Part shown: one piece after another, positions 840 through 16,769 of the stretch
How positions within the stretch are numbered: the first letter of the stretch is position 1
How the letters are laid out: every line of letters starts with the position of its first letter
NCBI GenBank assembly: GCA_029567375.1
Contig: JAKQLB010000198.1
Coordinates: 1-64,000, forward strand
DNA length: 64,000 nucleotides
Source: Bacteroidota bacterium
GTDB taxonomy: Bacteria > Bacteroidota > Bacteroidia > Bacteroidales > UBA932
Reading direction: 5' to 3'
Translations under genes and position numbers: made by a program
Notes under the pieces: generated by a model
What the model was told of the DNA's origin: nothing
Seen by the model: the letters and a program-made list of their open reading frames with translations, nothing else
Database searches by the model: none

Positions 840-912
840 AAACAGACTGTAAATCAATAACAGCTTTCCACAAATCATAGATTTTGGTATTTCATTGATT
901 TACAGTCTGTTT
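840..912. repeat. 19-bp perfect inverted repeat
   Basis: AAACAGACTGTAAATCAAT at 840-858 is repeated as its exact reverse complement at 894-912, with a 35-bp spacer. It lies just upstream of the excisionase-like gene. The arms are long for a simple terminator and neither side ends in a clean T-run, so an operator or recombination site is also possible. Confidence 0.7.
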
Positions 913-961
913 TTCTTGCATTATTGCTGCTATTTGCAGTGATGGATTGCACATAAAATCA

Positions 962-1564: not shown

Positions 1565-1577
1565 TTTTTGAATGGTT

Positions 1578-1612
1578 TTTACACAGTGTGTTCTCGCAAT
1601 ATGCTGTGTAAA
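1578..1612 (+). terminator. Hairpin after the excisionase-like gene
   Basis: TTTACACAG (1578-1586) pairs perfectly with CTGTGTAAA (1604-1612). A second small stem, GCTGT/ACAGC, follows directly. The hairpin begins 13 bp after the stop codon. Confidence 0.55.
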
Positions 1613-2008
1613 GCTGTTTTGAGTGACAGCTTCCTCTTATATTTTTTAGGTTGCACGCTGCACTTCCTTTTATAATTTCCCCTTTTGTAAGAATGTATTT
1701 ATGGGACTGTTATATCGTTCCAATTGAACTGTTGTAAAGAAAGTAAATTCTCTTTTCCACATCACTTTCGGGCTGGTTGAATAAGAATTGTGTCGCGAAG
1801 GTATATGTCCTGTCTTTCTTCTTCGCAAGGTCAAGCCTGTCGGTTCTTGCCAAAATCTCCACACTCGGTTTTTAACTGAGGTAGTATTTTGCCAATGAAG
1901 CCTTGCTGGAAGAGCCGGGACACCTTGCAAAGCGACATAATTTTAATCAAACCCGAAAGTAGCTGATGCTAACAGAGGGAAAAGTAATAAATCAAATCAA
2001 AAGCGATT
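1613..2008. other. Gene-free leader before a small-ORF operon
   Basis: No protein-like frame is seen here. The last 30 bases contain CAGAGGGAAAAGTAATAAAT and end directly in the ATG of the next gene. Similar AGGGAAA-rich ends precede three other operons in the window (about 19.1, 22.0 and 23.5 kb), so this is probably an untranslated leader rather than a gene. Confidence 0.4.
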
Positions 2009-2302
2009 ATGGCAAATTATGCGACTAACATCTTCTACGCAAGTACGGAGAATGAGAAAGACCTTGATAAGGTGGAGAATTTTTTGGAAGACACATTTTG
2101 TGACTGTTACCTCGACAGGTCGGAAGACAGTATCGAGGGCGAGTTTTCGTCAAAATGGGACTATCCCGAAAAAGAGATAAACAAGATGATTTCTCTTTTG
2201 GAGGACAAAGACAAAATCTACATTCGAGTGCTGACACACGAACTATGTAACGAGTATGTGAACTTCCAAGTGTTCTCTAATGGAGAATGGTCATACCGAT
2301 AA
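2009..2302 (+). CDS. Hypothetical small acidic protein
   Basis: A 97-residue acidic, soluble protein with no signal peptide or membrane segment. I do not recognise the family by function. It starts MANYATNIFYAST and has two acidic stretches. It is the first gene of a tight run of four small genes; its end is followed after 20 bp by the next start. Small proteins of this kind cluster around ssb genes in Bacteroidales conjugative elements, so a role in element biology is likely but unproven. Confidence 0.6.
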   Translation: MANYATNIFYASTENEKDLDKVENFLEDTFCDCYLDRSEDSIEGEFSSKWDYPEKEINKMISLLEDKDKIYIRVLTHELCNEYVNFQVFSNGEWSYR

Positions 2303-2322
2303 CCCTTAAAAACTCACTGATT

Positions 2323-2502
2323 ATGTATTACGAGGACGAACAAGATACGGACATTATCGGGTGCTTATGCACGTTACTGACTCCTTACAAGGGGCATACA
2401 GAGGGTGAAGTCATGGGAGACTACGGCAACGAGATAGTGGTAAGGCTCACCAACGGCAAGGAGGTGGTGGAATACCGGGATGAAGTGTTAATCTATGACT
2501 AA
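2323..2502 (+). CDS. Hypothetical 59-residue protein
   Basis: A short acidic protein beginning MYYEDEQDTDIIGC. I start it at the ATG after the upstream stop, because the longer frame begins inside the preceding gene. Its stop codon overlaps the next ATG as TAATG, which argues for translational coupling. The middle (GEVMGDYGNEIVVRLTNGKE) looks like a small beta-barrel or strand-rich fold, but no function can be assigned. Confidence 0.55.
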   Translation: MYYEDEQDTDIIGCLCTLLTPYKGHTEGEVMGDYGNEIVVRLTNGKEVVEYRDEVLIYD

Positions 2503-2852
2503 TGGAGGATTGCTTTATGATGACACCGATAGCGACAAGGTTTGTGGATTGGAATATTCCCGAACTTTCAACCCTGCAAGACAGCAAGGTCTATCAGTTG
2601 AGACAACAACTAAATGATGGTGTTCCTATGTGCCGACAGCAGAAGAATTGGCTGACAAACAGCGTGAACAGCAATACCTATTTCAAAAGGTCAGTTCCAC
2701 TTATGGGCTACCGCTTTGACTTTTCGGATGTGCTGAAACGTTTCTTTGTCAAGCAATATGGGCATATTGCAGAATACTATGCCGTTGATAAAACCTCATT
2801 GAGGGCATTCCTTTGTGGCAGGATTGATGAAATCATTGAAATAACCGATTAA
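2502..2852 (+). CDS. Hypothetical 116-residue protein
   Basis: The start overlaps the preceding stop (TAATG). Alternative ATGs lie 5 and 6 codons later. The protein is soluble and mildly basic, with a motif-like stretch around SVPLMGYRFDFSDVLKRFFV. I do not recognise the family. Its membership of the tight small-gene run suggests co-expression with the LPD28-like protein that follows. Confidence 0.55.
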   Translation: MEDCFMMTPIATRFVDWNIPELSTLQDSKVYQLRQQLNDGVPMCRQQKNWLTNSVNSNTYFKRSVPLMGYRFDFSDVLKRFFVKQYGHIAEYYAVDKTSLRAFLCGRIDEIIEITD

Positions 2853-2864
2853 AATAAAAATATT

Positions 2865-3152
2865 ATGCTGTACGATTATAGACAAGAAAGTAAAACACCA
2901 ATGCTTCTGACTTTGGCTAATGGCAAGACCATTGAGGGCGAATTTATAGACCTACGGATAGATACCAACACATTGCCCAAAGGTAAACTATGGTATCACA
3001 TTCGGCATACGGACGATGATTGGACGGAACCTGCCTCATTGAAGAACGGTTGCGTGGTGGTCAATTTCTGCGGTACGTTCATTTGCGACCCCATCGACAA
3101 TTTTCCTTGTGGACAGGAACTGGAGATAGCCGACTGGTCATATCTGGAATGA
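2865..3152 (+). CDS. LPD28-like small protein
   Basis: This 95-residue protein resembles the stand-alone LPD28 (large polyvalent protein-associated domain 28) proteins of Bacteroidales elements. The features are MLLTLANGKTIEGEF near the start, then RIDTNTLPKG, a YHIRHTDDD stretch and a VVVNFCGTF strand. The domain is otherwise found inside giant polyvalent proteins of phages and conjugative elements; its biochemical role is unknown. It is the last gene of the run and is followed by a perfect hairpin about 100 bp downstream. The family name rests on recalled pattern similarity, not on a search. Confidence 0.55.
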   Translation: MLYDYRQESKTPMLLTLANGKTIEGEFIDLRIDTNTLPKGKLWYHIRHTDDDWTEPASLKNGCVVVNFCGTFICDPIDNFPCGQELEIADWSYLE

Positions 3153-3254
3153 TGACAGGCTTCAGGCGAATGGCAGCACGGAGAATGTTTCTCTATGTTG
3201 CCATTTCTGTTATTGACCAATATGCCATAAATGGCTATCGACTTTTATAATCCG

Positions 3255-3272
3255 GGCTTGTAGAAACAAGCC
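3255..3272 (+). terminator. Hairpin after the small-gene operon
   Basis: GGCTTGT (3255-3261) pairs with ACAAGCC (3266-3272) around an AGAA loop. A short T-rich stretch follows. Confidence 0.5.
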
Positions 3273-3965
3273 TGACTACCTTTTGTAAATTAGCATTATT
3301 CCGATGAAGCCGGCAATACACCTTTTATAGATACGACAGTTCATACTTCGCCAATGGCGACCAAGGCAGCTTTGTCCGGCGATAGCGGGACTTCTGCTTT
3401 TCTTTCCCTTTTGGGCATCCTTGTCTTGTCGGTCGTTGAAGTAGAAGGCGACTATTCTGATGCGGTTTTCGACTGTTCGTCAAGTCGGTCTGTTCTTCGG
3501 GGCGGCACACTCCACGGCAGAATGCTCTTGGTTGGCTTACGACATAAATGCAGGCATTGTCCAGCATCCACTTTTGGTGGCAATACTCGTTCCTCTCCGA
3601 TCATACTTCTTCTTTTTCTTTTGGACTTACAGCCGGAGCGTTTATTCAAACTTGCATTTACGGACGGATGCTGTCCACTCACGAAGCCTTGCCCATTTGT
3701 TTTCATCAACCCGTTTCACAACCGCTTTTGGTCGTGTTATCATACATTTTTCCGTTGCAAAGTTAGTATGTAGCCGGGCACGGCTAAAGAGCCTTGGTCA
3801 ATGGCGTAGCTTCACAAATCTTCCTTTATCGAGCCTGTGGTTTTGGCGGCTTGCGCTGACAAAAATAAAGCGTATTTGATTGCTATCCTTGTCGCAACCC
3901 TATACTGCACTCACTTATGTTGGCAGCGTAAAAATAATTTTAATAACAACTTAAAGCATTGTAAT
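3273..3965. other. Gene-free region upstream of ssb
   Basis: Several overlapping open frames exist on both strands, but none has protein-like composition or a plausible start, so I treat them as chance. A Bacteroides-type -7 box (TAACTTTG) lies on the minus strand at 3758-3765 and would drive a leftward transcript through this interval. An untranslated or antisense RNA is possible. The plus-strand leader of ssb is AT-rich in its last 60 bases. Confidence 0.35.
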
Positions 3966-4346
3966 ATGAAACAGATTGAGAACAATTTCGCAGTATCAGG
4001 ATTCGTAGGTAAGGACGCAGAAATCCGTCAGTTTGCAAATGCAAGCGTGGCACGCTTCTCATTGGCAGTAAGTCGTCAGGAGAAGAATGGAGAGGAAACA
4101 AAGCGTGTTTCCGCTTTCATCAACGTGGAAGCCTGGCGTAACAACACCAGCACCGATTCGCTCACCCAGATAATCAAGGGCGTTCTGCTGACCGTGGAGG
4201 GCTATTTCAAACCCGAAGAGTGGACCGACAAAGACGGCGTAAAACATAATCGCATCGTCATGGTCGCCAACAAGTTCTATCCAACGCCTGACAAGGAGGA
4301 AGCTCCGGCAGAGCCTGAGAAGAAAACTAAAAAAGGCAAGAAGTAA
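3966..4346 (+). CDS. ssb: Single-stranded DNA-binding protein
   Basis: A 126-residue SSB with the usual OB-fold. It begins MKQIENNFAVSGFVGKDAEI and continues through FSLAVSR, an FINVEAW strand and LTVEGYFKPEEW. The C-terminal tail is lysine-rich (ending KKTKKGKK) instead of the acidic tip that recruits partner proteins in classical SSB. The start is the ATG that opens the family-typical N-terminus; the frame continues upstream, but that extension has no family match. Plasmid and ICE SSB proteins protect transferred single strands and help replication in the recipient. A terminator follows. Confidence 0.9.
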   Translation: MKQIENNFAVSGFVGKDAEIRQFANASVARFSLAVSRQEKNGEETKRVSAFINVEAWRNNTSTDSLTQIIKGVLLTVEGYFKPEEWTDKDGVKHNRIVMVANKFYPTPDKEEAPAEPEKKTKKGKK

Positions 4347-4368
4347 TTCCTGCCTCGCCTTAAAGAAC

Positions 4369-4395
4369 AAAGCGGCTTCGGTCGCTTTTGTTTTT
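4369..4395 (+). terminator. Rho-independent terminator of ssb
   Basis: AAAGCG (4369-4374) pairs with CGCTTT (4383-4388) and is followed by TTGTTTTTG, a good intrinsic terminator placed 22 bp after the stop codon. Confidence 0.75.
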
Positions 4396-4992
4396 GCTTC
4401 GTAGATTTGCCTGTTATATTCTAATGGTTGCGCCCTTATACTTTTTCACCCTTCCCGTAAGCGGCTTCTTCTATTCTTTCTGAAGAGACTTGTTCGGTTG
4501 TGCAATGTTACACGTTGCTCCACTCTCGCAAGACTCTCCGACGGAAACGATCGATACAAAAAGATTTGCCAACCGCTCCAAGACTTCGTTTTATCCCGGT
4601 AGTCAAAACATTTTGTTGATTATCGGGCTTACAGAAGAAACTCGCTTACTGCCCACCCGAATATGCTTGGAAGATTTATGACAAGAGGGAAAATGTAATT
4701 GCTTATCAGTCCCCCTCTCGCTACCGACACTGTTGGACTGGCATCGGTTGAAAGCTATCCCAAAACTTACTATCTGTCTCTTCGGTAGTCGCTTTTACCC
4801 CATCCAACGAGAAGAGCCTTTACTATTTTAATGAATACCCAGAAAGCCAATAATACAATAATTGTTTCTCCCATACTGCTGTTATATTTTTGTTCTTGCT
4901 ACTTGTAAAAGTACGAAAAAATCATAAGAAAAACAAATGTATTTAACTAAATATCAATGTGATAGGCTGAGTTGTTCGATCTCTTAATGCTA
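4396..4992. other. Gene-free region between ssb and the broken FKBP gene
   Basis: No protein-like frame was found on either strand. The region is convergent: ssb ends on its left and the minus-strand operon ends on its right. I see nothing else I can name in it. Confidence 0.4.
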
Positions 4993-5391
4993 CTATGCAA
5001 TACCAAACAATTCAATCTCGAATATCAAGGTTGAACCACCCGGGATGCCTGGTTGCGAGAACTTGCCATATCCCATTTCTGCAGGAATGTATATCTCCCA
5101 TTTATCTCCTATGTACATCTGTTGCATGGCCACAATCCAACCCTCAATCAGTTCGTTCAGACGGAAGGCAATCGGAGTGCCGCCCCGACTGCTGTCAAAT
5201 TTCTTTCCGTTTATAGTCCACCCGATATAGTGGGCGGTGACGATACTGCGTGGTGTAGGATGCTTGTCATCGTTCTTCCCCTCACTGATGACTTTGTAAT
5301 AGATACCTTTCGGGAGTGGCTTTACTCCCTCTTATTTGGCTTTCGCTTCCAGCCAATCCTTATTGGCTTGTATGTATTCTTTTTTGCTCAT
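4993..5391 (-). pseudogene. FKBP-type peptidyl-prolyl isomerase, broken by a nonsense codon
   Basis: Reading the minus strand from the ATG at 5391 gives MSKKEYIQANKDWLEAKAK and then a TAA at codon 20 (5332-5334). The same frame continues without a stop for 112 codons. It reads EGVKPLPKGIYYKVISEG, then SIVTAHYIGWTINGKKFDSS, a GTPIAFRLNELIEGWIVAMQ stretch and a PGGSTLIFEIELFGIA end. These are the core strands and active-site loops of FKBP-fold prolyl isomerases. The position of TAA corresponds to a glutamate-type codon (GAA to TAA is one base change). No good start codon follows the stop early enough to restore the fold. It is the last member of the minus-strand DUF262 operon. Confidence 0.8.
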
Positions 5392-5452
5392 TTCTTTGCC
5401 AAACTCAATTGATAAATCTATAAAATTCGACTAAAGTTAATTATACATGAAT

Positions 5453-7417
5453 TTACAAGGCATTAAAAGGTTCGTTTGATGACAGAGCTTTACTAATCAA
5501 CTCTTTTATGTCTTGTTCTTCTTGTACTATTTTCGTTTCGTCCCACCGTTCTCCTTTCTTAATAGTATTCATCATAGATTTTAATTTGAGACTATAGGTC
5601 TTCATAGCTTTGGCATCACCAAAGTTTTCATATTTTGCTCCTGGAAGATTATTGGTGAATTTTGAATTCATACCCCTGCTGACAAGACACAAATTTCCAA
5701 AACTATGTAGATGGTTAAAATCCATTGGTTCTTTATCCGTTGGATGTTGTGGGTAGAAATGTTCAACAGAAGTTCTGTATGAAAACTCAAAGTCTGCATC
5801 ATTAGTCTCTCTCAACAATAGGTAGTCGTAAAAGTTAAATACGAAATTCTCTACATGTTCTCCTTTTTGTGGATACTCGTCTATATTGATATTTGACCAT
5901 AAAATGTCTTTGCTGTGGTTTACACTCTTTCCATTATTCTTGAATATAATAGTCTCAAATGGGACCTTTTTTTCAGGGACTGCTAAATATCTATCTAACA
6001 TATATGCTTTTGACAAATTCCATAGATATTCAGCATATTCAGAAGCGTTTGTATTCCTATGATTATAGACATAGTATAAGCTGGCATTCATCCAGTGCTT
6101 ATATACCTGAGTCGGTGCTGACACATGAAACATGGATAGGAGTGTAACTATATTACGGTTTTGTCCAGACCTATCATCTTCGGATTCAGTTTGTGAGAAG
6201 GTATCTTTGTAATAGTATTTATCTTTATCTGCTTTTTGTGGCGACAATTTCTTCAGACTCCATTTATCTTGTTTTCTTTTAATGATGTATCTGTCAAAGA
6301 GAAAACGTATATCAAGGAGTTTCATAATAAACTCTATGCTGAAACTAGCAGCGTCTCTTTCGCTTTTAACCACGCTTTTGAAAATCTTCGTCAATCTTTT
6401 GTCATCCAACACAACTTCTTTATTGTCTGGACGGATTATTTTTAGGGCATGGAGAAGAAAGTTGGAAAAAGTAATCAATGAATGGTAAGCTTCTGATTGG
6501 TCTTTGTCGGTGCCGTCTTCCCATGGCTTACTATAAGGTGTGTTGTTAGCAGCATCTACGAATAACCGCATTAAAGAATGATTCTTTTCATTACCAAGCA
6601 CAGAATTTTTACTGTATAATGCAGCTAAATCTTTGAATGTGATTTTAATGCTTTCAGTGCCATTATTGTCAAATATTTGCTCTCTTGTGGTTTTGGAGAA
6701 ATTCAGCTGAACATATCTATCCATATTTGAACAGGCTTCCCAAATCAGATTAAAAGCGGCCATAGCAGACTGATCTTCTTTAATTGGAGCCATAAGTTGT
6801 GCTTTCACAATTTCGTGTTGTTCAAGCTGCTCTCCCCTGGAGTTCATTATCTCGAAATAATGATTAAGGTTTGTGTCTTTTGGAACACTTATACGAAGAA
6901 TGATTACCTTATTAAGTAGATAATCAATAAAACTTGAAACGGAAATTTCTTTGTCCTGACAAATTTTGTAAACAATGCTCCACGCTTTGTTATACACTGC
7001 CATAATATTTGCATTAACAACGCTATAATTGATAGCTTCGGGGTTACTGTGCAATGCAAATAACGTGAGGTTGGATTTTTCTCTATGGTCAAAAGAGAGA
7101 TTTACCTTAGAATACCATGCTAAGTCATATTTTGAATAATTGTGTTTTAGTGCACATAAGAGTATTGTTATGGTTGTCGTTCTCTGTTGTCCATCAATTG
7201 TCTCGAAATACAAACTATTGTCCTTATGCCTTGGGAATACAATAAGGTTTCCTATGTAATAGTTATTAGCTGGTGAATCTTTCGCATAATCTGCTATATC
7301 CTGAATAAGTTGAGTTGTTTCGCCTACCCCCCAGGCATAGTTCCTTTGATAAATAGGTATGCGATATTCATTGCTGCTCAGCAATTCTTTTATGGTGAGT
7401 TCTTGTATATCGTTCAT
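5453..7417 (-). CDS. DUF262 + DUF1524 (GmrSD-type) putative defence nuclease
   Basis: A 654-residue protein. Near the N-terminus it has the DUF262 signature YRIPIYQRNYAWG, followed by ETIDGQQRTTTITILL. The IDGQQR motif is the ParB-like nucleotide-hydrolysis motif of the GmrS half. Near the C-terminus, SVEHFYPQHP followed by SFGNLCLVSRGMNSKFTNN matches the His-Me/HNH nuclease pattern of DUF1524, the GmrD half. GmrSD enzymes are type IV restriction systems that cut modified (glucosylated) phage DNA in an NTP-dependent way, and BrxU is a related fused protein. The gene begins 5 bp after the other DUF262 gene, so the two are co-expressed. The exact target is unknown. Confidence 0.8.
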   Translation of the reverse strand: MNDIQELTIKELLSSNEYRIPIYQRNYAWGVGETTQLIQDIADYAKDSPANNYYIGNLIVFPRHKDNSLYFETIDGQQRTTTITILLCALKHNYSKYDLAWYSKVNLSFDHREKSNLTLFALHSNPEAINYSVVNANIMAVYNKAWSIVYKICQDKEISVSSFIDYLLNKVIILRISVPKDTNLNHYFEIMNSRGEQLEQHEIVKAQLMAPIKEDQSAMAAFNLIWEACSNMDRYVQLNFSKTTREQIFDNNGTESIKITFKDLAALYSKNSVLGNEKNHSLMRLFVDAANNTPYSKPWEDGTDKDQSEAYHSLITFSNFLLHALKIIRPDNKEVVLDDKRLTKIFKSVVKSERDAASFSIEFIMKLLDIRFLFDRYIIKRKQDKWSLKKLSPQKADKDKYYYKDTFSQTESEDDRSGQNRNIVTLLSMFHVSAPTQVYKHWMNASLYYVYNHRNTNASEYAEYLWNLSKAYMLDRYLAVPEKKVPFETIIFKNNGKSVNHSKDILWSNINIDEYPQKGEHVENFVFNFYDYLLLRETNDADFEFSYRTSVEHFYPQHPTDKEPMDFNHLHSFGNLCLVSRGMNSKFTNNLPGAKYENFGDAKAMKTYSLKLKSMMNTIKKGERWDETKIVQEEQDIKELISKALSSNEPFNAL

Positions 7418-7422
7418 AATAA

Positions 7423-9222
7423 TCAGAAATAGAGTTGTTTGATTTGAGAATCTGCATTTGAAGCTAATGATTCGATTTGCGGGGTCATGAGATTTATAAT
7501 TTCATATGGGGATTGAGCATCACGAATAGTTTTGAACATAATGCCGTTAGTGGCACTATTGTCTATAGTTGGGAGCTGAACACTGTAGTGTATTAGGCGA
7601 ATTTGATACACATATCTAAAGATTTTTCTCACTACCTTATTTATTTCAGCGAAACCAAATCTATCAACATAATAAATCAACAGGCAATTAAATAACTGCC
7701 GGACATAAATATCACCAGTACGATTCCTGTTAGAATAATTGTTTAACATTCGAACGATTTTATATGCTGATTTTTCATCTTCTGTTGAGTCATAATTTTT
7801 GTATTCATTTTCGTCTATGATTTTATTATACATGGCATCGTAGTAACGAATCATATCAAAAAACCGGCTCCCGTTAATACATATTTGATCTATCTGGAAA
7901 GGAAACTCCATTTTTGACTGGTCGATATTTCTAGATGGTTCATTGGCATAAAACGATGAGAAAAAATGACATATAATTTGCTGCATATAAAAAGGATATC
8001 GTTTATCTTCTAAAGATATACCCTTAAAAGCGTCAATATTGTCTTTTGTAAATTCCTTTCCACTGTTATTTTTGGCCCATCTTTTGACTCTATATAAAGT
8101 CAAGAACAATTCGACTAATCTTTGTGGATCAAGATCCTGCCATTTTGTGATGTTATCACTGTCTTTCTCGGAGAGTCTTTTGATTTCTCTAAGATGAAAA
8201 GCTTTCAATAGATCATGTGGCTCCAAGTCTTTTCCTCTTGCATTTTGAGAATCAAAAAATTGGAAAGCTTCAGATATTTCTGGTAGGCGAACTACAACAA
8301 ACTGACATTTGCTTAAAAGAAAATCTAAAAAATTATCATCCAAATCATCCAATCTATCTTCAATAGCTATAAGGTTTTCTCTCACATGTCCAATTGAATG
8401 CTCGTTTGTAAATTCAGTACGTTTCCAAAATGTTTTAATTCTATCTTGTACTTCTTGATAAGGATTCTTGATCCTTATTTCTTTTTTGTTGAAAAGTTCG
8501 TACAAAATCAAAGAAAGAGTGACTATACGTTGTTGACCATCCACTATATTGTTCTCATGAAGAACAAGAGTACCAAGTCTATATTCTTCGCTATCCTTGA
8601 AATACAAAAGATCATTGATTAATTGATTGACATTCTTTACACCCCATTTATATGGACGTTGATATTCTGGAATTATGAAGTTATTGAAAGGTAATTCTTT
8701 AATTTTTAGAATGCCGTAAGTAAGCTTTTCTACTTGCATGCTATCGGCAGGTGGAAGAATCTCTAAATTTTCCATTTGCTGCATTATGACTTCTGCGTCT
8801 CCATGCTCTGCTGATAAAGGAGATAACACAGGGTCGAATATTTTAGATATTTTCTCAAAGCATTTGATGATATCGTCTGCAGACTGAATAGAAATATTGA
8901 TTCTACACCGGCCTCTATTACGATTTCCCCATCTATGCCAACTTAGCTCTTGATGCTGATAAGATTCTTCAACTAACTCTCTCCAAATAGTATTATATTC
9001 ATAACCGCTGAATTTTCCTTCGAGGTGTAATTCAACGTATCCTTGATAGTATTCGTAATGTATATCGATATCGTGGAGGATGGTCTCCAATTGGATGAAA
9101 CGATTGTCGTGATAATGATTTGTTTCAGTCTTGTAGTATCTTCCAAGAAAGTAATCCTTTAGCTTGGGCTCAATTTCCTTTTTTAAGCTATCAGTAATTT
9201 TTAAATACTCCATAATTCTCAT
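7423..9222 (-). CDS. DUF262 protein with an extra N-terminal domain
   Basis: A 599-residue protein. Residues 1-165 form an unrecognised alpha/beta domain, vaguely like the DUF4268-type modules attached to nucleases. The DUF262 core starts at about 170 (FNNFIIPEYQRPYKWGVKN) and contains NIVDGQQRIVTLSLIL. No HNH/DUF1524 motif is visible at the C-terminus, so this copy looks like a GmrS-like NTPase/sensor without its own nuclease. It sits between the degenerate recombinase gene (9-bp gap) and the complete DUF262-DUF1524 gene (5-bp gap). That arrangement suggests a two-component complex in which this subunit recognises the target. The start could also be the ATG three codons later. Confidence 0.75.
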   Translation of the reverse strand: MRIMEYLKITDSLKKEIEPKLKDYFLGRYYKTETNHYHDNRFIQLETILHDIDIHYEYYQGYVELHLEGKFSGYEYNTIWRELVEESYQHQELSWHRWGNRNRGRCRINISIQSADDIIKCFEKISKIFDPVLSPLSAEHGDAEVIMQQMENLEILPPADSMQVEKLTYGILKIKELPFNNFIIPEYQRPYKWGVKNVNQLINDLLYFKDSEEYRLGTLVLHENNIVDGQQRIVTLSLILYELFNKKEIRIKNPYQEVQDRIKTFWKRTEFTNEHSIGHVRENLIAIEDRLDDLDDNFLDFLLSKCQFVVVRLPEISEAFQFFDSQNARGKDLEPHDLLKAFHLREIKRLSEKDSDNITKWQDLDPQRLVELFLTLYRVKRWAKNNSGKEFTKDNIDAFKGISLEDKRYPFYMQQIICHFFSSFYANEPSRNIDQSKMEFPFQIDQICINGSRFFDMIRYYDAMYNKIIDENEYKNYDSTEDEKSAYKIVRMLNNYSNRNRTGDIYVRQLFNCLLIYYVDRFGFAEINKVVRKIFRYVYQIRLIHYSVQLPTIDNSATNGIMFKTIRDAQSPYEIINLMTPQIESLASNADSQIKQLYF

Positions 9223-9231
9223 TAATATAAC

Positions 9232-9858
9232 TTATTCCTCTTTCGGTTTACGTTTTCCAAGCGGCCCGCTGAACTTGCCTCGATTGAGTGAAACACCATA
9301 TTTATTGAGAATGCGGAACACCGAACTGCGACTGTTGAATCCGCTCACTTTCCAGATGTCATCAATGGAATGCCCGTTATTGTACATCGCCACTATTGTC
9401 TTTTCACGCTCCGCCCTGCTAAGACTTTTCTCTTTGGTCGGCTGGTTGATATTCTGTTTCAGATGGATGATGTGGGCTGAAGCCTTGCGTAGCATGGCAC
9501 ATTCCTCCGGCAAAGAACCGAACATCTCCAGTACATCGGAGGCTTTTGTTTCCGGAAACAAATCCCCACGGCTGTCAATCTTGTCGTGAATGGAGACAAT
9601 CCGAACCACCTTTACCCGGCAGAACTCGATGAATGTCGCCAGCTCACGGGAGCCACGCAGGGCATTACTGAATTTTGAGACAACCAACTCGTCCCCACGC
9701 TCCAGACTTGCCATCAGCTGTTTCCATTGAGGGCGCAGTTTCTCGTGTCCGTTCTCTTCCTCTATCACTTGTACACAGCCGTATTGCTCCATCCACTCCT
9801 TGTCAGTGTCGAAGCCGTCATAACCGGCTGCCTTGAATATGTAACCTACTTTTGCCAT
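9232..9858 (-). CDS. Serine-recombinase-like protein with degenerate active site
   Basis: A 208-residue homologue of resolvases. The N-terminus MAKVGYIFKAAGYDGFDTD aligns with the resolvase GYARVST segment, but the nucleophilic serine is replaced (KAA). KFSNALRGSRELATF aligns with the KLDRLGR segment and lacks the first catalytic arginine. The C-terminal helix-turn-helix is intact (AMYNNGHSIDDIWKVSGFNS, then SVFRILNKYGV). I therefore expect a DNA-binding regulator rather than a recombinase. The start is the ATG at 9858, because a promoter -7 box lies at 9890-9897 and would be inside a longer frame. It heads the DUF262 operon and is divergent from the lipoprotein/relaxase operon. Confidence 0.75.
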   Translation of the reverse strand: MAKVGYIFKAAGYDGFDTDKEWMEQYGCVQVIEEENGHEKLRPQWKQLMASLERGDELVVSKFSNALRGSRELATFIEFCRVKVVRIVSIHDKIDSRGDLFPETKASDVLEMFGSLPEECAMLRKASAHIIHLKQNINQPTKEKSLSRAEREKTIVAMYNNGHSIDDIWKVSGFNSRSSVFRILNKYGVSLNRGKFSGPLGKRKPKEE

Positions 9859-9889
9859 ACTGATGTTCAATGCTAAATGATACCAACTG

Positions 9890-9897
9890 CAAAGGTA
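9890..9897 (-). promoter_or_regulatory. Bacteroides-type -7 box for the DUF262 operon
   Basis: The minus strand reads TACCTTTG, an exact match to TAnnTTTG. It lies 32 bp upstream of the ATG at 9858 and decides that start. Confidence 0.65.
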
Positions 9898-9918
9898 CAA
9901 AGTTTAATCTGAATAAAA

Positions 9919-10010
9919 TCATACTTACGAAAATAATTTGCAATAATTATACTCTGTATTTTCATTTGTTTTGCTCTTGTTTGTTTTGCCCATCATACTC
10001 GTAAGTATGA
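9919..10010. promoter_or_regulatory. Operator-like TCATACT sites between divergent operons
   Basis: TCATACT occurs at 9919-9925. At 9993-10010 it forms a perfect palindrome with its complement, TCATACT-CGTA-AGTATGA. The sites lie between the divergent recombinase-like and lipoprotein genes. The same half-site recurs as a cluster in the other divergent control region at 41363-41449, which suggests a common regulator. Confidence 0.6.
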
Positions 10011-10066
10011 AAAGGAAAGTATATTAAAGTTTGATTATTAAGTATTATTATACAAACTTTTATACT

Positions 10067-10074
10067 TACCTTTG
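10067..10074 (+). promoter_or_regulatory. Bacteroides-type -7 box for the lipoprotein/relaxase operon
   Basis: TACCTTTG matches TAnnTTTG and lies 24 bp upstream of the ATG at 10099. No clear -33 TTTG is seen at the usual spacing. Confidence 0.6.
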
Positions 10075-10098
10075 CAGCCATAAATCAATAATAATCGT

Positions 10099-11193
10099 AT
10101 GTGCAAAGGCTTATTCAAAGTGAAATCAGAGAGAAAAATCAAAGGTGTTGATGTTATATCATACTTAAAAAAGCAATCCGTTCTTGCCAAAGGTATTGCC
10201 GTATGTTTTGCCATCTTTATATTGGCATCGTGCGGAAAAAATACGGATGACAGTATGTTTCAGACAAGTGAAAGTGCTGTCAATGCTTACAGAACCTATT
10301 TGTCCGATATGCGTAGTATGGAAACCCTTTCGACCGAACATTTGATAGAGGCTGTCAACGGTTGGCAGGCACTTCGGGATTCAGTCTTTGTCCGTATCGC
10401 CAAAGACACGGCAGACCATATCCACGCAAAGTATGAAACCACCATACAAATGTTGCACGATTCCTTACAAACGGAGTTCATACGCCTGGCTAATTCAACC
10501 CCAAAAACATTCAAGGATGTATTGCTCATCAAGGAACGGACTTCCCCATACAGGCAAGATGCGGAACTGGCACAAGCGGTTGCGACAGCAGAATCGTTCT
10601 TCGACTCGTTGAATTCGATACCGCTTTACCGAAAAACGACAAAGAATATCGTATCTGTTTATAAGACCTTTCTTGCCCAAACTCTAAAATCCGGAATAAA
10701 CAGCAAAGATGAGATGCTTGACTTTATAAGAGAAGAAGACAGGCTGTTCCGTTCATTCCTTGCCCATCTTCCGGAACTTGCAGATGCCGACCTTTCTGCC
10801 ATTACAGGCGACACGGAGCAATGTTGCCTTTCGGTGTTTCAGTCGGCAGAGGACGGCAAGTTCTCTTACCGGGATGCCCTGATATATTTCGCCAAACGTA
10901 CCGACCGAAGAATCGTCTTCAATGCGTTGGTTTGCAGGAATGACATCAACCAAGACAAGGTCAAGACGGATGCACAGGCACGTGCGTATGTGTGGATGCT
11001 GTTGCAACCCTACATAGCATTGGACGATTTCAGTATGGCTGTGCTGTCCGATAAGGAAAGGGTGTCATTGCATGGTGTGGCAGAACAGATGCCCTCTATG
11101 ATAGCCAGACTAAACAAGATTATCGGTACTGACAATGACCAATGGGAAACTTTGCCGGAATTGTTTATCAAAACCATGATCACTTCCATTTAA
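10099..11193 (+). CDS. Putative lipoprotein of the element
   Basis: A 364-residue protein with a long basic start, a hydrophobic segment (about 30-45) and a lipobox ending ILASC at Cys46. It is thus predicted to be exported and lipid-anchored. The rest is mostly helical and charged, with no recognised catalytic motif. It is the first gene of the plus-strand operon that leads to the relaxase. The unusually long n-region before the signal segment may mean that translation starts later, but no other in-frame ATG is available. Function unknown; a role at the envelope during mating would fit the neighbourhood. Confidence 0.65.
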   Translation: MCKGLFKVKSERKIKGVDVISYLKKQSVLAKGIAVCFAIFILASCGKNTDDSMFQTSESAVNAYRTYLSDMRSMETLSTEHLIEAVNGWQALRDSVFVRIAKDTADHIHAKYETTIQMLHDSLQTEFIRLANSTPKTFKDVLLIKERTSPYRQDAELAQAVATAESFFDSLNSIPLYRKTTKNIVSVYKTFLAQTLKSGINSKDEMLDFIREEDRLFRSFLAHLPELADADLSAITGDTEQCCLSVFQSAEDGKFSYRDALIYFAKRTDRRIVFNALVCRNDINQDKVKTDAQARAYVWMLLQPYIALDDFSMAVLSDKERVSLHGVAEQMPSMIARLNKIIGTDNDQWETLPELFIKTMITSI

Positions 11194-11222
11194 AAACAGA
11201 AACAAATAAAAACTACAACGAT

Positions 11223-11669
11223 ATGCTACAACTCTTTTACAATGACTTTCTCTCCTTCGTGCCGCTCCAGCTTCCGCAACTATTGGATGTTACCACGATG
11301 GAGCAACCGCAGTTCTATGACGATTATGTCCTGCTCTCTTTTCCGCTTGCGGAACAATACGATCTGGAAGAAGTAATGGATATGTTGGAAGATGACATGG
11401 AGCTGATAATCCTTTACCACCATATTCAGACAGGGGCTACCAACTTCGGCAGCAGTACTTGTGCCTACTCCAATCCTACTTTCGGGCAGATGTTCAAGAT
11501 GAATGCAAGAGTAACAGATACCGGCAAGGTTGACCGCATTGATGTGACCATCTATGATTCCTTAGAGTTCATGTGTTCAGACATCTGTCTTGACCTGAAA
11601 CTCCACGAACAGGGCGGTTACTTCAAATATCGCAAAAATAAGGAAGAATTGCTCGCGGAGTTTATATGA
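11223..11669 (+). CDS. Hypothetical 148-residue protein
   Basis: The protein begins MLQLFYNDFLSFVPLQLPQL. The longer open frame begins inside the preceding gene, so I use the ATG 30 bp after that gene. It is soluble, acidic in the middle (DLEEVMDMLEDDMELII) and rich in aromatic residues. I do not recognise it. Its stop overlaps the next start as ATGA, which shows translational coupling within the operon. Confidence 0.6.
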   Translation: MLQLFYNDFLSFVPLQLPQLLDVTTMEQPQFYDDYVLLSFPLAEQYDLEEVMDMLEDDMELIILYHHIQTGATNFGSSTCAYSNPTFGQMFKMNARVTDTGKVDRIDVTIYDSLEFMCSDICLDLKLHEQGGYFKYRKNKEELLAEFI

Positions 11670-12046
11670 GACGGACGATATACCTGCAAATGCTTTATCT
11701 TATAGATATGCACAAGAGTTGGATTGCCTTGGATGGCAGTCGCAGTTATGCGCCACGTATCATCTTCAAGCGTAGCGGGGCACTTCTATGTACATTCCGC
11801 ACCATTCGTCTTCGGGCAATCTATAAACACAATGGCTATGAGCGCGGCACGAAATGGAGCATATCCGAATACGAACTGGACAGGGCACTGGCAGTGTATC
11901 GCAAGCGGAATCCCGAAGTCAAGGCCCGCCTGAAAAAGGGAGCGTTCTATATGGAAGCCAAAGATGTCAATGCCATTGTGGAGCTTGCCACATACGGTTT
12001 GCTCAAACTGGAACTGTCAGAATTTCCATTATACAAACAACGTTGA
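11666..12046 (+). CDS. Hypothetical basic protein
   Basis: A 126-residue, clearly basic protein (many Arg and Lys, for example YKHNGYERGTKWSISEYE and NPEVKARLKKGAFYM). It has no signal peptide. Its start overlaps the previous stop by four bases. A nucleic-acid contact is possible from the charge, but no family is recognised. Confidence 0.55.
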   Translation: MRRTIYLQMLYLIDMHKSWIALDGSRSYAPRIIFKRSGALLCTFRTIRLRAIYKHNGYERGTKWSISEYELDRALAVYRKRNPEVKARLKKGAFYMEAKDVNAIVELATYGLLKLELSEFPLYKQR

Positions 12047-12066
12047 TTATACAATACCCATTTATT

Positions 12067-12561
12067 ATGATTTGGATTATCATTGAATTTATTTTCCCGG
12101 CATTGCTCATTGCATTGCCCTTGTCATTGTACAGAAGCAACCGCCTTTTTATGGCAAAGTTCTATTTAAGGATGACGGCAAGCGGGAACGCACGCAAACT
12201 CTATGTGCGCTGTATGCTCATACTTATTCTCCTGTATCACTATATCTATGCAGGCGGACATTTCGGAGAATGGGGCATCCTGGTATCTACCATCCTGTGT
12301 GCCATTCTGTTCCCGTTCAAACGTGCGGACAAATGGTTGGCCGGACTTCACGAGGAACAGAAGCGTTTCTTTCTGGCGGCACTGCTCGCATTGGCAATTT
12401 GTGCAGTACCGCATCTGCACACCACAGCCGTTACGCTTGGCTTTCTTCTTTTGGCTGCCATGTTCTATCCCTCTTGTAACGTGCTGTCAAAATGGGAAGA
12501 TGAAGAAACCAAGAAACAATGGTGTAAGAATCCCAGAACATTGTCCGAATACTACTATTGA
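12067..12561 (+). CDS. Hypothetical four-helix membrane protein
   Basis: A 164-residue integral membrane protein. About four hydrophobic segments are visible: residues 1-20 (IWIIIEFIFPALLIALPLSL), about 45-60 (LILILLYHYIY), about 65-85, and about 100-135 (FLAALLALAICAVPHL and LGFLLLAAMFYP). The soluble tail is short and charged. The gene lies 20 bp after the basic protein. It probably serves the same operon-encoded envelope process; the family is not recognised. Confidence 0.6.
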   Translation: MIWIIIEFIFPALLIALPLSLYRSNRLFMAKFYLRMTASGNARKLYVRCMLILILLYHYIYAGGHFGEWGILVSTILCAILFPFKRADKWLAGLHEEQKRFFLAALLALAICAVPHLHTTAVTLGFLLLAAMFYPSCNVLSKWEDEETKKQWCKNPRTLSEYYY

Positions 12562-12645
12562 CATCATCACGCAATGCTGCCATGAATAAGTGGATAGTGG
12601 CAGTGGACTCGAATCCACAGATAGTCAAATTAAAAAACGACCGAA

Positions 12646-13497
12646 ATGACGAAAGACAAGAATAGATGTGCCAATCAGATATTGGCGGATATGGAACTCT
12701 TCGACTTCCTCAAAGAGAAAGTCGGAGAAAGAAAGACGAAGACCGGTGCCTACCACGACCTGTTGGAAAAGTGTGTGGCAGGATTCGTAGTCCCTTTCCT
12801 CAAGAATCACGAATACGTGTTGCAGGCTGACCAATGCCATGTGACCATTTCCGACCTTGCATCGGAATGGCATTGGCACAGGGCTACCGTCAGGACATTC
12901 CTCGACAAGTTGGAGGATATGGGGCATATATATCGTACACGCTTTGCCAAGAGTGTGGTCATTACAATGGTGTTCAACAAAACCGGCATTGGCAATTCTA
13001 CTACCACTTATAATGGTCAAGCGGAGATTCGACCTGCCGATGAGTTTGATGCCGCTCTATCCAAATGGATAACCGGCAATTTGACAGACTCACAGATGGG
13101 TGATATATGTGAACAATACTACGTAAGTCGGTTGAAAGAGATTGCCGACAATTCTCCTGTTGGTGGCTCTGGAAGCCAAACGTCTTCAAAGGACAAATCA
13201 GCAGATGAACTTACCCGGACATTGGTTCAGCGCATAGCCGTTGCCGGACTGAAGCGAACCATACGAAACTCACGCTTCGACAACCCGACCGCTTTTATCG
13301 ATTTCTTCCACTTCGAGCTGGGGGATGACTGGTCTTCTCTTTTGGCTGCATCCAAGATGACCGCCAAGATAATCCTCGACGGTGAAAGTGAGGTAACGGG
13401 CGCAAGTTCCGATGAGATAGAGATCCTTGCCACGCTCAAAGAACCGTTCAAGGCTCTATGGGCGAAGTGCCGGGAAGACGATTCGGACCTTTTATAG
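12646..13497 (+). CDS. Winged-helix-like DNA-binding protein
   Basis: A 283-residue protein. About residues 60-110 look like a winged helix: VTISDLASEWHWHRATVRTF, then LDKLEDMGHIYRTRF. The remainder is helical and unrecognised, apart from a polar linker (GGSGSQTSSKDKSAD). It lies just upstream of the candidate oriT and the relaxase gene. That is where auxiliary relaxosome or replication-control proteins are often encoded, so oriT binding is a reasonable inference. It could equally be a regulator of the operon. Confidence 0.55.
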   Translation: MTKDKNRCANQILADMELFDFLKEKVGERKTKTGAYHDLLEKCVAGFVVPFLKNHEYVLQADQCHVTISDLASEWHWHRATVRTFLDKLEDMGHIYRTRFAKSVVITMVFNKTGIGNSTTTYNGQAEIRPADEFDAALSKWITGNLTDSQMGDICEQYYVSRLKEIADNSPVGGSGSQTSSKDKSADELTRTLVQRIAVAGLKRTIRNSRFDNPTAFIDFFHFELGDDWSSLLAASKMTAKIILDGESEVTGASSDEIEILATLKEPFKALWAKCREDDSDLL

Positions 13498-13500
13498 GCT

Positions 13501-13728
13501 TTACAACAGTTGTTGTAAGTTTCTACCAGATTGTATAACCACGGACAAGCCGTGATACCCTACGCTTATAGGCTTGCCATTCCAAGCGTGCAGCAGTGCT
13601 TGCACGGTGACCAAACAGAGGGAAGTAAGGGTAGCCTAATACCCCAATAGCATAAAGCTATCGGGAGAGGTGCCCGGACAAGCAGCAAGCTGGGGCAAAC
13701 AGGATGTCCGAAAAACAGAAAAGAGAAT
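13501..13728 (+). other. Candidate oriT: cluster of inverted repeats upstream of the relaxase gene
   Basis: This 230-bp gene-free stretch holds at least four inverted repeats. They are TTACAACA/TGTTGTAA (13501-13518, 2-bp centre), CACGG/CCGTG, CGTGCA/TGCACG and ATAGC/GCTAT. MobV-family relaxases nick next to such hairpins directly upstream of their own gene, so this is the best oriT candidate in the window. The first repeat could instead terminate the preceding gene. Confidence 0.5.
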
Positions 13729-15180
13729 ATGGCAAATGCAAAGCAGGTGATGGATTTCCGACCATCAAAAGGCATAACCACAGCACAAAGCAACGAACAC
13801 CAACGCAGGTGGACGGAAAAAGGCTGGGAGCGTGCCGTGTCGGTCGGGAACTATGATCCGACAAGAGAACATTTGAATTTTGAGATAAGGGCAGGTAAGG
13901 TCTGCCCTATAGATAAGACACGGAGCATCCCGGAAAGAATGTCCGATAATTTGTTGGCGAGAGGAATCAAAGACCCAAATGCAGGTTTGGCAGAGCCACG
14001 TTTCCGCACGGTGGTCAATTTTATTTTCGGAGGTTCACGTGAACGTATGCACGAAATAGCTTTCGGCAGTCAGATTGTAAATTTTGATAAGGGAGCGGAC
14101 AATTCCCATGTCGAGAGGTGCAAGGATATTGAAGAATGGGCCAAGGACGTCTATTCATTCGTTTGTGGCAAATATGGAGAGGAGAACATTGCAGCTTTTA
14201 TCGTACACATGGATGAACTGAATCCCCATGCGCATTGTACCTTGTTGCCAATCCGTGACGGCAAGTTTGCATACAAGCAGATTTTTGCAGGAAAGGACAA
14301 GTACGAGTTCAGCGCACGGATGAAGCAGTTACATAGCGACTTCTCAGAAGTGAACAAGCGTTGGGGAATGTCACGTGGTAGCAGTATATCCGAGACCGGC
14401 GCAAAACACCGCACCACCGAAGAGTACCGCCGACACCTTTCGGAAGAATGTACCAATATCGAAGAACAGGTTGTCCAACATAAAAAAGCACTGTCCGACT
14501 TAAAAGTGGAAATCAGTCTGGCAGAACGCAGGGTAAAAGGCTTGACCTCAATGGTGGACAACCTCAGAAAGGCGAAAGCGGAAAAGGAATACCAGTTGTC
14601 GGCATTGGAGCGCACCCTTCAATCCCATCAGGGAGATACGGCTGCCATTATAGCAGAGAGGGATCGGTTGGAAAAGGAACTGGCTTCTATCCAAACGAAA
14701 CTGGAAGACAAGCAGGATAAGCTACGGACGGCTGACCAACAACTTGAAGCCCTTAAAAGGGACATGGATGCCATTGGCGAGCGCACGGAGGAGTTGAAAG
14801 GCGAAGCCTATAAGTACATCCGTGAAATCCATTCCAACGTGGATGTGCTGCTCAAAGATGTAATGTTGGAAACATTGGTCAGGGAGCACTCGGCACGATT
14901 GGGAGAAATGGGACTTTCCGAACAGTCCCGATTTGACGGTTCATTACTGCAAAGCCTGACGGAACAAGGATCGGAAGTGATGCACTGCGCCACGCTTCTG
15001 TTTCTCGGAATGGTCAATGATGCCACTACTTTTGCCGAAACGCATGGCGGTGGTGGAAGCTCCAGTGACCTTAAATGGGGACGGGACGATGACGAGGACA
15101 ACCGGGCCTGGGCAAGACGGTGTATGATGATGGCAAGCAAGATGATGTGTCCGGCTTCCGGCAAAAAGCAGAAACGATAA
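13729..15180 (+). CDS. MobV-family relaxase
   Basis: A 483-residue mobilisation protein of the Pre/Mob (MobV) type. The N-terminal relaxase domain covers about residues 1-225. Its motif III, HMDELNPHAHCTLLPI (about 164-179), matches the HxDExxPHxH metal-binding pattern of this family. The region 235-365 is a long coiled coil rich in Glu, Lys and Leu, usual for MobV proteins. The C-terminus is basic. The enzyme should nick oriT, covalently hold the 5' end and be carried to the recipient through a type IV channel. A cluster of hairpins upstream may be its oriT. Confidence 0.9.
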   Translation: MANAKQVMDFRPSKGITTAQSNEHQRRWTEKGWERAVSVGNYDPTREHLNFEIRAGKVCPIDKTRSIPERMSDNLLARGIKDPNAGLAEPRFRTVVNFIFGGSRERMHEIAFGSQIVNFDKGADNSHVERCKDIEEWAKDVYSFVCGKYGEENIAAFIVHMDELNPHAHCTLLPIRDGKFAYKQIFAGKDKYEFSARMKQLHSDFSEVNKRWGMSRGSSISETGAKHRTTEEYRRHLSEECTNIEEQVVQHKKALSDLKVEISLAERRVKGLTSMVDNLRKAKAEKEYQLSALERTLQSHQGDTAAIIAERDRLEKELASIQTKLEDKQDKLRTADQQLEALKRDMDAIGERTEELKGEAYKYIREIHSNVDVLLKDVMLETLVREHSARLGEMGLSEQSRFDGSLLQSLTEQGSEVMHCATLLFLGMVNDATTFAETHGGGGSSSDLKWGRDDDEDNRAWARRCMMMASKMMCPASGKKQKR

Positions 15181-15235
15181 TCGGCAGGAGGTAGTTTCCT
15201 GCATCGGATGTGAAATCTATAATAACAGAAAACGT

Positions 15236-16732
15236 ATGAGAAATAAAATAGTATTTGTAATGGCAATGGCAGGAATGTGCTGCACACTGCAAGCGAAGGC
15301 GAATGTACAACCTGTCCCACAGGATAGTGTACACTATGAATCCTATATGGAGAAGGAACTGATGTTTCAAACCGCAGAGCCGACTTATCACAAGGGAGTG
15401 CTGGTAACTTCACCATGGAACGGCAACTGGTTTGTCAGTCTGCAAGGTGGTGCAAGTGCTTTCATCGGCAGACCGATTGGCTGTGCTGATTTGTTTGACC
15501 GGGTACAACCATCGTTATCCGCATCAGTCGGCAAATGGTTCACTCCACAGATCGGGGCAAGAATCGGGTATGGAGGTTGGCGGTTCAAGGACTGCAACCT
15601 TACTGCCAATGACTATCATCATTTCCACGCCGACCTGATGTATAATGTCCTTGGCGGACTGTATGCAAAGAAAGAAAATCCACGTTGGGGCATTGTTCCA
15701 TACGTTGGCCTTGGAATGATGTATAATCCTCAGAACGGTCAGAAACCATTTGCCATTTCTTATGGCATACAAGGGCAATACCGCATCTGCAAACGGCTGG
15801 CAGCATTGCTGGAGATTGGCAATGCTTCCACTTTCCAAAACTTTGACGGATATGGGGAAGCCAACCGCTTCGGGGACAATATGCTCTCCGTTTCTGCCGG
15901 ACTGTCTTTCACGATTGGAAAGGTCGGGTGGAAACGAACCGTTGATGCGACTCCTTATATTCGGCAAAACGAGTGGTTAGTGGAATATGCTTCGGAGTTG
16001 TCGGAAAGCAACCGCAGGTACATTGGTCAACACGACAGGGATATGCGTACCTTGAATGAACTGAAGAAAATTTTGGATATTGAAGGATTGCTTGAAAAGT
16101 ACAGCCGGCTGTTTGAAGACCATGAAAATTTAAGCAGTGGTTATCCTAAAAATGATTACAGCGGACTGAACTCGCTCAGGGCAAGGTTGAAGAACAGGCG
16201 TTGGGATGGCAAGTCGCCTTTGTCCAATGACAGCCTTGCGGTTTGTTCCGGAATTGCCAATGTGAATGTAGATGATAGTGGAAATTCAAATGAAGTCCAA
16301 TCGGACAATCTTGCCAAAGCTCAGGAATTGACAAATATGGGCGGAGACAGCATTGCCACCTATAACCACTCGGATTATCTGTCCTTTATAAACTCCGGCA
16401 ACGAGTGCATCGGTTCTCCCGTTTATTTCTTCTTTGAACTCGGCACAGCGAAGTTGACAGACAAGTCACAGTCGGTCAATCTTGATGAACTGGCACGTGT
16501 CGCAAAGAAATACGGATTGTCGGTTACTGTTGTAGGTGCGGCTGATGCAGCCACAGGGGCTGCCGATGTAAACGACAGGTTAAGCATATCGAGAGCCGAT
16601 TATATTACCACAGAATTGGTTAAGCGAGGACTGGCAGTTGATGTGATTACCAAGGTCGGCAAGGGAGGAATCTCAGATTACAATCCTACCGAAGCCAATC
16701 GACATACCAAAGTATTGCTTTATATGAAATAG
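15236..16732 (+). CDS. OmpA-family outer-membrane protein
   Basis: A 498-residue exported protein. The signal peptide covers about residues 1-22 (MRNKIVFVMAMAGMCCTLQA). Residues 60-245 resemble an outer-membrane beta-barrel with alternating aromatic strands (WFVSLQGGASAFIG and GIVPYVGLGMMYNPQNG). A helical linker follows. The C-terminal OmpA-like peptidoglycan-binding domain covers about residues 385-498. It starts at VYFFFELGTAKLTDKS, includes LSISRADYITTELVKRG, and ends with NPTEANRHTKVLLYMK. Such proteins anchor the outer membrane to the wall. Located just after the relaxase gene and before a terminator, it may stabilise the mating surface or act in surface exclusion; this is inferred. Confidence 0.8.
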   Translation: MRNKIVFVMAMAGMCCTLQAKANVQPVPQDSVHYESYMEKELMFQTAEPTYHKGVLVTSPWNGNWFVSLQGGASAFIGRPIGCADLFDRVQPSLSASVGKWFTPQIGARIGYGGWRFKDCNLTANDYHHFHADLMYNVLGGLYAKKENPRWGIVPYVGLGMMYNPQNGQKPFAISYGIQGQYRICKRLAALLEIGNASTFQNFDGYGEANRFGDNMLSVSAGLSFTIGKVGWKRTVDATPYIRQNEWLVEYASELSESNRRYIGQHDRDMRTLNELKKILDIEGLLEKYSRLFEDHENLSSGYPKNDYSGLNSLRARLKNRRWDGKSPLSNDSLAVCSGIANVNVDDSGNSNEVQSDNLAKAQELTNMGGDSIATYNHSDYLSFINSGNECIGSPVYFFFELGTAKLTDKSQSVNLDELARVAKKYGLSVTVVGAADAATGAADVNDRLSISRADYITTELVKRGLAVDVITKVGKGGISDYNPTEANRHTKVLLYMK

Positions 16733-16769
16733 AAAACAAAAGATACTTTTTGCTTCATGATTTGAATTG

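Follow-up and report, generated by a model that had tools for sequence, protein, structure and literature searches.

A probable TgvAB-like DUF262 pair on a MobV mobilisation backbone, and the apparently new accessory domain of its first protein

Three genes lie in close succession on the minus strand of a 64,000-nucleotide stretch from a Bacteroidota bacterium (Bacteroidales, UBA932; GenBank assembly GCA_029567375.1, contig JAKQLB010000198.1, positions 1 to 64,000; hereafter the window), and they raise the question of whether all three make up one defence system or only two of them do. A serine-recombinase homologue that has lost its catalytic serine (208 aa; 9232..9858; Pfam, alignment and invertase phmmer matches) is followed, after 9 bp, by a gene for a nuclease-free DUF262 protein (599 aa; 7423..9222; Pfam and family alignments) and, after a further 5 bp, by a gene for a DUF262 protein with an HNH nuclease domain (654 aa; 5453..7417; Pfam). 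An earlier note on this DNA, which had taken the trio for a defence operon led by a repurposed recombinase and perhaps representing a distinct class, placed the genes correctly: its coordinates, gene order and 5-9-bp gaps are borne out by the positions of the open reading frames (ORFs). We consider it probable, with some confidence, that the two DUF262 genes form a TgvAB-like system to which an accessory domain, apparently new, has been added, and that they are cargo of a MobV backbone that has a recombinase-derived regulator.

The domain content of the two DUF262 proteins is clear from Pfam. The second has GmrSD_N (PF03235) at residues 9-209 (E 4.5e-30; 105.7 bits, cut-off 33.2) and GmrSD_C/DUF1524 (PF07510) at residues 527-637 (E 1.7e-8; 34.9 bits, cut-off 23); the latter domain (5507..5839, minus strand) keeps the His and Asn of a His-Me finger nuclease, with EHFYP at 552-556, which contains H553, and with N575 and N584. 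The first comprises an N-terminal accessory domain that belongs to no Pfam family (residues 1-140; 8803..9222, minus strand), DUF262/GmrSD_N (residues 180-343, E 1e-28; 8194..8685, minus strand) and a DUF7834 part (PF25202, residues 357-589, E 2.4e-65; 7456..8154, minus strand), and the Pfam scan found no nuclease domain in it. On both proteins Pfam thus agrees with the earlier note, which had described the first as lacking a nuclease and the second as DUF262-DUF1524 with an HNH-like motif. All three DUF262 motifs, which in the first protein are YQR (187-189), DGQQR (228-232) and FDSQNARG (323-330), are found in both proteins, and both genes are full length. The best PADLOC match of both proteins is HEC-06 (E 2.1e-26 and 1e-29), with the best-scoring stretches in the DUF262 part.

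The two DUF262 genes are conserved as a unit. An alignment of 11 rows for the first protein served as query against GTDB genomes; of the best 80 of at least 434 confirmed loci, 77 have a relative of the second protein (by protein comparison) downstream on the same strand, and the remaining three (L084, L089 and L102) stop at contig ends. The partner lies within -110 to +20 bp and is at least 590 aa long in 72 loci; among the five other partnered loci, L090, L112 and L141 are seemingly broken, L130 is cut by a contig end, and the partner ORF of L121 is called from too far upstream. These loci come from Bacteroidota, Pseudomonadota, Bacillota, Actinomycetota, Spirochaetota, one Methanobrevibacter metagenome-assembled genome (MAG) and others. 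That the genes are found together elsewhere, rather than mostly apart, sustains with the domains the earlier idea of a type IV-like system composed of a DUF262 partner and a DUF262 nuclease.

Distances among the first proteins and among the second proteins are closely correlated (r = 0.94 for 88 pairs, where 2000 permutations reached 0.13 at most), and remain so when near copies are removed (r = 0.93 for 81 pairs, with a maximum of 0.22 under permutation), in a comparison that omits four further loci without a second-protein ORF of at least 450 aa nearby (L090, L130, L141 and L160). DGQQR is kept in 87/88 first and 87/88 second proteins and [DE]HxxP in 83/88 second proteins; YQRxYxW, a stricter and rarer pattern, is kept in 86/88 first and 61/88 second proteins, and the tight FxxxxNxRG pattern in 63/88 first proteins. 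The first protein has matches in 908 plasmid records, not one of which covers 80% or more of its length, and in all four of those examined the two genes are adjacent; the partner genes on four plasmids encode proteins 35-39% identical to the second protein. The pair of an E. coli plasmid has type I M and S genes ahead of it and an insertion sequence (IS) element, then hsdR, behind. Single-sequence scans of viral contigs, sensitive to close relatives only, found no relatives of the first protein. In one Bacteroidales genome (G637; L160:5282-10734) the partner nuclease gene is split by a 367-aa ORF that looks transposase-like by eye, and the first gene, with its N-terminal domain, is intact.

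Pairs of this kind have been described in Vibrio cholerae. TgvA and TgvB, of VPI-2, both have DUF262 and TgvB also has DUF1524; neither alone gives protection, the system restricts Tevenvirinae and depends on the DGQQR and HNH residues, and Bacteroides fragilis is among the 1,341 tgvAB hits obtained from 41,142 genomes (PMC11411939). The DNA on which TgvAB acts has sugar-modified hydroxymethylcytosine. The window pair resembles TgvAB in consisting of two adjacent genes, with the nuclease-free DUF262 protein encoded first and DUF262-DUF1524 second, in its DUF262 motifs, and in the spacing of 31 between H553 and N584, which is that of H571 and N602 in TgvB (PMC11411939). It departs from TgvAB in that DUF262 is N-terminal in TgvA (PMC11411939), whereas the first protein of the window has an extra domain of about 140 aa ahead of it, and in being carried behind a gene of a MobV backbone; the type I setting of TgvAB in V. 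cholerae resembles instead that of the E. coli plasmid pair (PMC12409362). GrwAB, a second two-gene system, from the WASA lineage, also requires both proteins (PMC12137116; reviewed in PMC12409362) and likewise has two DUF262 proteins, one with DUF1524. Its nuclease-free member, GrwB, is encoded second, and several unknown domains follow its DUF262 (PMC12137116), whereas the nuclease-free partner in the window is the product of the first gene and is DUF262-DUF7834. Single-chain GmrSD, BrxU and SspE have the DUF262 plus HNH architecture of the second protein, but these are typically single-protein systems (PMC11411939, PMC12409362, PMC12137116), and HEC-06 is a GmrSD-like protein that works independently (PMC11411939), whereas the nuclease of the window is paired with a second DUF262 protein. 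Since TgvAB and GrwAB have been published (PMC11411939, PMC12137116), the class proposed in the earlier note is already known.

What does set the window pair apart is the accessory domain. The earlier note was right to call it novel: residues 1 to about 140 of the first protein have no credible Pfam match (best E 0.5-0.6), and no description was found among the matches listed, supplementary tables aside, in open-access literature on TgvAB, GmrSD or DUF262, so that the domain is new as far as we have searched. Its predicted layout is helix, four strands, helix, two strands, helix. AlphaFold2 gives an alpha-beta fold for the domain alone (mean pLDDT 82, pTM 0.78; 8-row alignment) and the same domain in a model of the whole first protein (mean pLDDT 86, pTM 0.55). 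Foldseek returned no match to the domain at E<=0.001, and its profile found no credible match among PDB sequences (best E 0.026). With VIA-align the best match was an uncharacterised Pyrococcus protein (Z 7.5), followed by 8q8o, type III chaperones, a capping protein and MotA, all with Z <8 and rated inconclusive by the tool; T4 MotA (Z 6.0 and 5.7) and McrB (Z 4.9) stand amid unrelated rows of up to 7.5. DUF4268 is among the extra domains of GmrSD homologues (PMC4619093). As an identity for the accessory domain, to which motifs had also pointed, it is not supported: the hhalign probability is 0.5%, with a shallow, four-row DUF4268 profile that leaves room for remote kinship, and the Pfam scans gave no DUF4268 match.

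The domain is rare. Most first proteins of the 80 loci start at about residue 150-180 of their counterpart in the window (P0002), and the domain is present in six of the loci (blastp E<1e-5), all Bacteroidales MAGs; it also occurs in three more genomes (L050-L052) from the family to which the window belongs. It is missing from the 20 best plasmid matches listed, which begin at residue 143 or beyond. Profile searches gave matches in 7/344 genomes at the level of the order (the window's own, four TgvA-type proteins in G406, G479, G635 and G637, a different protein in G607, and a weak match in G571), in 2/395 at that of the class (the window's own and one weak match left uncounted) and in 1/395, the window's own, at that of the phylum. 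Two weak matches were discarded by eye, that of G571 (E 2.4e-4) as an unrelated repeat protein and that of G763 (E 1.5e-4), which has a stop inside it, as a polynucleotide phosphorylase ORF. A Kiritimatiellae locus (L129) that had been a row of alignments A2, A3 and A5, and thus of both structure models, was missed at E<=0.01 by a profile (A4) built without it and is therefore counted as lacking the domain. Two other loci (L113 and L122) have N-terminal ORF extensions of more than 100 residues that do not match the domain and may be start-codon artefacts. At E<=0.01, among ORFs of at least 80 aa in the loci collected, the A4 profile matches only first-gene proteins, some cut or repeated copies, and the G607 protein; no partner nuclease is among its matches.

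The domain does not appear to mark a single lineage. On a quick tree of 92 core sequences with the domain removed (91 loci and the window; the truncated or broken L084, L089, L092 and L102, of 95 candidate loci, are omitted), the domain label needs three changes and the starred branches force three, against a mean of 13.3 with shuffled labels, none of 500 shuffles being as low as three. If the starred branches of this tree hold, there would therefore have been three or more gains or losses of the domain.

A second context for the domain is provided by G607 (L161:3978-5072), in which a 365-aa protein that lacks DUF262 ends with it (E 1.4e-12; the profile was built without this sequence). That protein has no Pfam match of its own, and a WYL-domain gene adjoins it. 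Two homologues, L167 (MT837679.1, recorded as 'UNVERIFIED: Bacteriophage sp.'; E 1e-23) and L168 (E 1.7e-20), share with it a GxNPG motif, lack the accessory domain, and match uracil-DNA glycosylase PF03167 below the cut-off of 24.3 bits (24.1 bits, E 4.3e-5, and 20.3 bits, E 6.4e-4, respectively); single-sequence scans of viral contigs, reaching close relatives only, found no relatives of the G607 protein. Glycosylases of the uracil-DNA glycosylase superfamily, Brig1 and Brig3, defend against phages with modified bases (PMC13160076; PMC11078745). The fusion to a glycosylase-related protein, a single case, would by analogy make a role of the domain in handling altered DNA more likely. A bolder proposal would be that the domain is a mobile module for recognising altered phage DNA, grafted by Bacteroidales both onto the TgvA-type subunit and onto a Brig-like base-excising glycosylase, so changing the modifications attacked; we offer this as speculation that we think rather unlikely.

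How, then, does the recombinase homologue come to precede the pair? It matches Resolvase PF00239 at residues 24-99 (E 5e-9) and, below the family cut-off, HTH_7 (E 0.004), and its phmmer matches are the DNA invertases 3uj3 (E 8.4e-5) and 4m6f (E 1.8e-4), with which it has the Resolvase-type N-terminal domain in common; the active site of the invertases, serine and neighbouring residues, is lost in the window protein and in six close homologues. The missing serine nucleophile that the earlier note reported is confirmed, and the Arg before it is missing as well: GYIFKAA stands where the relatives L166 and L057 have GYARVST, and KFSN where these have KFDR or RLDR, while a later Arg is kept. The six distinct homologues aligned are 50-72% identical; two of them stand for plasmid records of Bacteroidales, four in all (L064/L065 and L066/L067), and the other four come from loci in two genomes. 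Plasmid matches were examined in 7/69 records, which include all but one (H24) of the five above 60% identity. The serine is missing in all six, so that homologues of the kind that would have refuted the earlier note, with the serine kept, do not appear in this clade, as it is in relatives at about 30-35% identity (L068 and L165), and it is among relatives at about 20-30% (L166 and L057) that it is kept. The loss is common to the aligned homologues and on this comparison is therefore a trait of a group, not damage in the window copy. One of the relatives with GYARVST, L057:5281-5853, belongs to the window's own genome (C136). No recombinase relatives were found among viral contigs by single-sequence scans, whose reach is close relatives only, and a search by exact phrase of one open-access collection found no paper on inactive serine recombinases as regulators.

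The relatives of this gene point to a carrier element. On the other side of the intergenic region a divergent cluster (10099..16732, plus strand) matches stretches of the plasmids L065 and L066 gene by gene; it holds a lipoprotein-like ORF (by eye; no Pfam match), small ORFs, a MobV relaxase (13729-15180; Mob_Pre PF01076, the MobV name being taken from plasmid records) and an OmpA-type protein (15236-16732; likewise named from plasmid records), with identities to L065 and L066 of 66-69% for the relaxase and 50-53% for the OmpA-type protein. On the other flank, ORFs at 2009-4346, among them an SSB gene, match L066, so that the DUF262 pair sits between two backbone parts common with Bacteroidales plasmids. 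Relatives of the pair are lacking in the recombinase-homologue loci L064-L068 and L053-L056. Behind the homologue in nine loci checked (same strand, at least 90 aa, within 500 bp) are the same 227-aa ORF in two, annotated DUF3800 in L064, ORFs of 101-106 aa in three, a 93-aa ORF in one, and none in three. Conversely, no recombinase homologue was found near the pair in any of the 80 GTDB loci (flanks of up to 6 kb, shorter where a contig ends; blastp E<=1e-3). The recombinase-like gene seems from these comparisons to belong to the carrier and not to defence, and on this co-occurrence we reject it as a component of the system; the earlier view of it as leader of a defence operon is not supported.

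The intergenic region offers a candidate site for its action. A palindrome, ATCATACT-CGTA-AGTATGAA, lies at 9992..10011 in the divergent promoter region as a candidate operator; ATCATACT-N4-AGTATGAA has no other match in the window at up to one mismatch and none in 100 shuffles, and the palindrome occurs in a single place in the 3.38-Mb genome assembly. Counterparts at a similar distance from the start codon (about 150 bp) are ATCATACT-TGCG-AGTATGAT in L064/L065 and ATCATATT-AAC-AATATGAT in L066/L067, and half-sites lie nearer the promoter. In the window the half-site AAGTATGAT (9918..9926, minus strand) adjoins TACCTTTG (9897-9890), which fits the consensus of a Bacteroidales-type promoter; the half-site occurs four times in the window against 0.64 expected, the others being at 3600, 10158 and 41421. 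The recombinase-like ORF starts with ATG at 9858, with an in-frame TTG at 9900. The simplest reading is that the recombinase homologue would be a DNA-binding regulator of the divergent promoters. Scans for sigma-70 promoters (fewer matches than in shuffles) and terminator-like sequences (8 matches against 2.8 in shuffles) were not used, and an Rfam scan of positions 1-20000 gave no match at gathering scores.

We therefore picture the following course of events. By homology, both DUF262 domains would bind and hydrolyse NTP, and the pair would sense altered bases in the DNA of an incoming phage, which the second protein would then cut with its HNH domain; the N-terminal domain of the first protein may widen or tune recognition, or dock a partner. 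The pair would travel as cargo behind the recombinase-derived gene of the MobV mobilisation backbone. The dead recombinase probably binds the palindrome, and would thereby control its own transcription, that of the backbone cluster and, where transcription reads through, that of the cargo. Several observations count against this picture. The regulatory role rests on position and palindrome, compared over four distinct intergenic regions, and at one locus (L053) the palindrome is degenerate. The immediate neighbours of the pair are not type I restriction genes, as they are for TgvAB, and 'TgvAB-like' here describes a likeness to VC1767/VC1766 in architecture, gene order, motifs and pairing. The best solved-structure match of the first-protein model, SspE (E 2.4e-5), comes with low TM-scores (0.23-0.25); the second protein (P0003) has no significant match among PDB sequences, SspE being the best (E 0.72). 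Finally, the FKBP-type peptidyl-prolyl isomerase gene next to the pair (4993..5407, minus strand; probably a passenger) is already broken by an in-frame stop near its N-terminus.

That broken gene, lying directly behind the pair at the 3' end of the range that the earlier note covers, though it goes unmentioned there, is also what might lead one to regard the cluster as decaying passenger DNA in which the pair is inactive and merely looks intact; with both DUF262 genes full length and every motif kept, we find this improbable. A three-gene system, in which the recombinase-like gene would take a working part as dedicated regulator or DNA-targeting subunit, is in our judgement very improbable: the shared strand and the 9-bp gap, too short to hold a promoter, would suit such a system, but no homologue was found in the DNA searched around the 80 pair loci, other ORFs or none follow it in the nine homologue loci checked, and no relative of either DUF262 protein was found in the eight of these that were searched.

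A more serious possibility, though one that we would not call probable, concerns the first DUF262 protein, which might be a structural or anti-inhibitor partner, for instance against the phage-injected IPI*, rather than a sensor, with its N-terminal domain as a protein-binding module. The TgvAB report leaves the role of TgvA open and names a phage inhibitor or a regulatory or structural role (PMC11411939), and type III secretion chaperones (Z 6-6.5) are among the best fold resemblances of the N-terminal domain. Those resemblances fall in the range that the tool calls inconclusive, however, Foldseek gave no match at E<=0.001, and the one case in which the domain is fused to a relative of glycosylases speaks more for DNA. 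A sensing pair carried as cargo of the MobV backbone remains the reading that we prefer.

Other genes of the window deserve mention. At 16817-18606 (minus strand) an AbiEii toxin (PF08843) and a DUF6577/AbiEi-like partner form a second defence-type module, and at 25784-27496 (minus strand) there is an ArdC-type anti-restriction protein (ArdcN and zincin), worth noting beside a restriction system. A single protein at 43757-45055 (minus strand) joins DUF1810 to an ADP-ribosylglycohydrolase (PF08837 and PF03747). The minus-strand run of ORFs at 51000-63100 includes a TerD protein (62523-63080), further copies TerD-like in appearance (60608-62448) and, by eye, von Willebrand-type, kinase-like and phosphatase-like ORFs.

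The papers on TgvAB and GrwAB leave unanswered why two-protein relatives of GmrSD need a second DUF262 protein (PMC11411939, PMC12137116). A subfamily in which one of the two DUF262 proteins has an extra, removable domain offers a direct test of a role in phage range. The recombinases that have lost catalysis and kept position and palindrome, for their part, provide a small, testable case of an enzyme that may have turned regulator.

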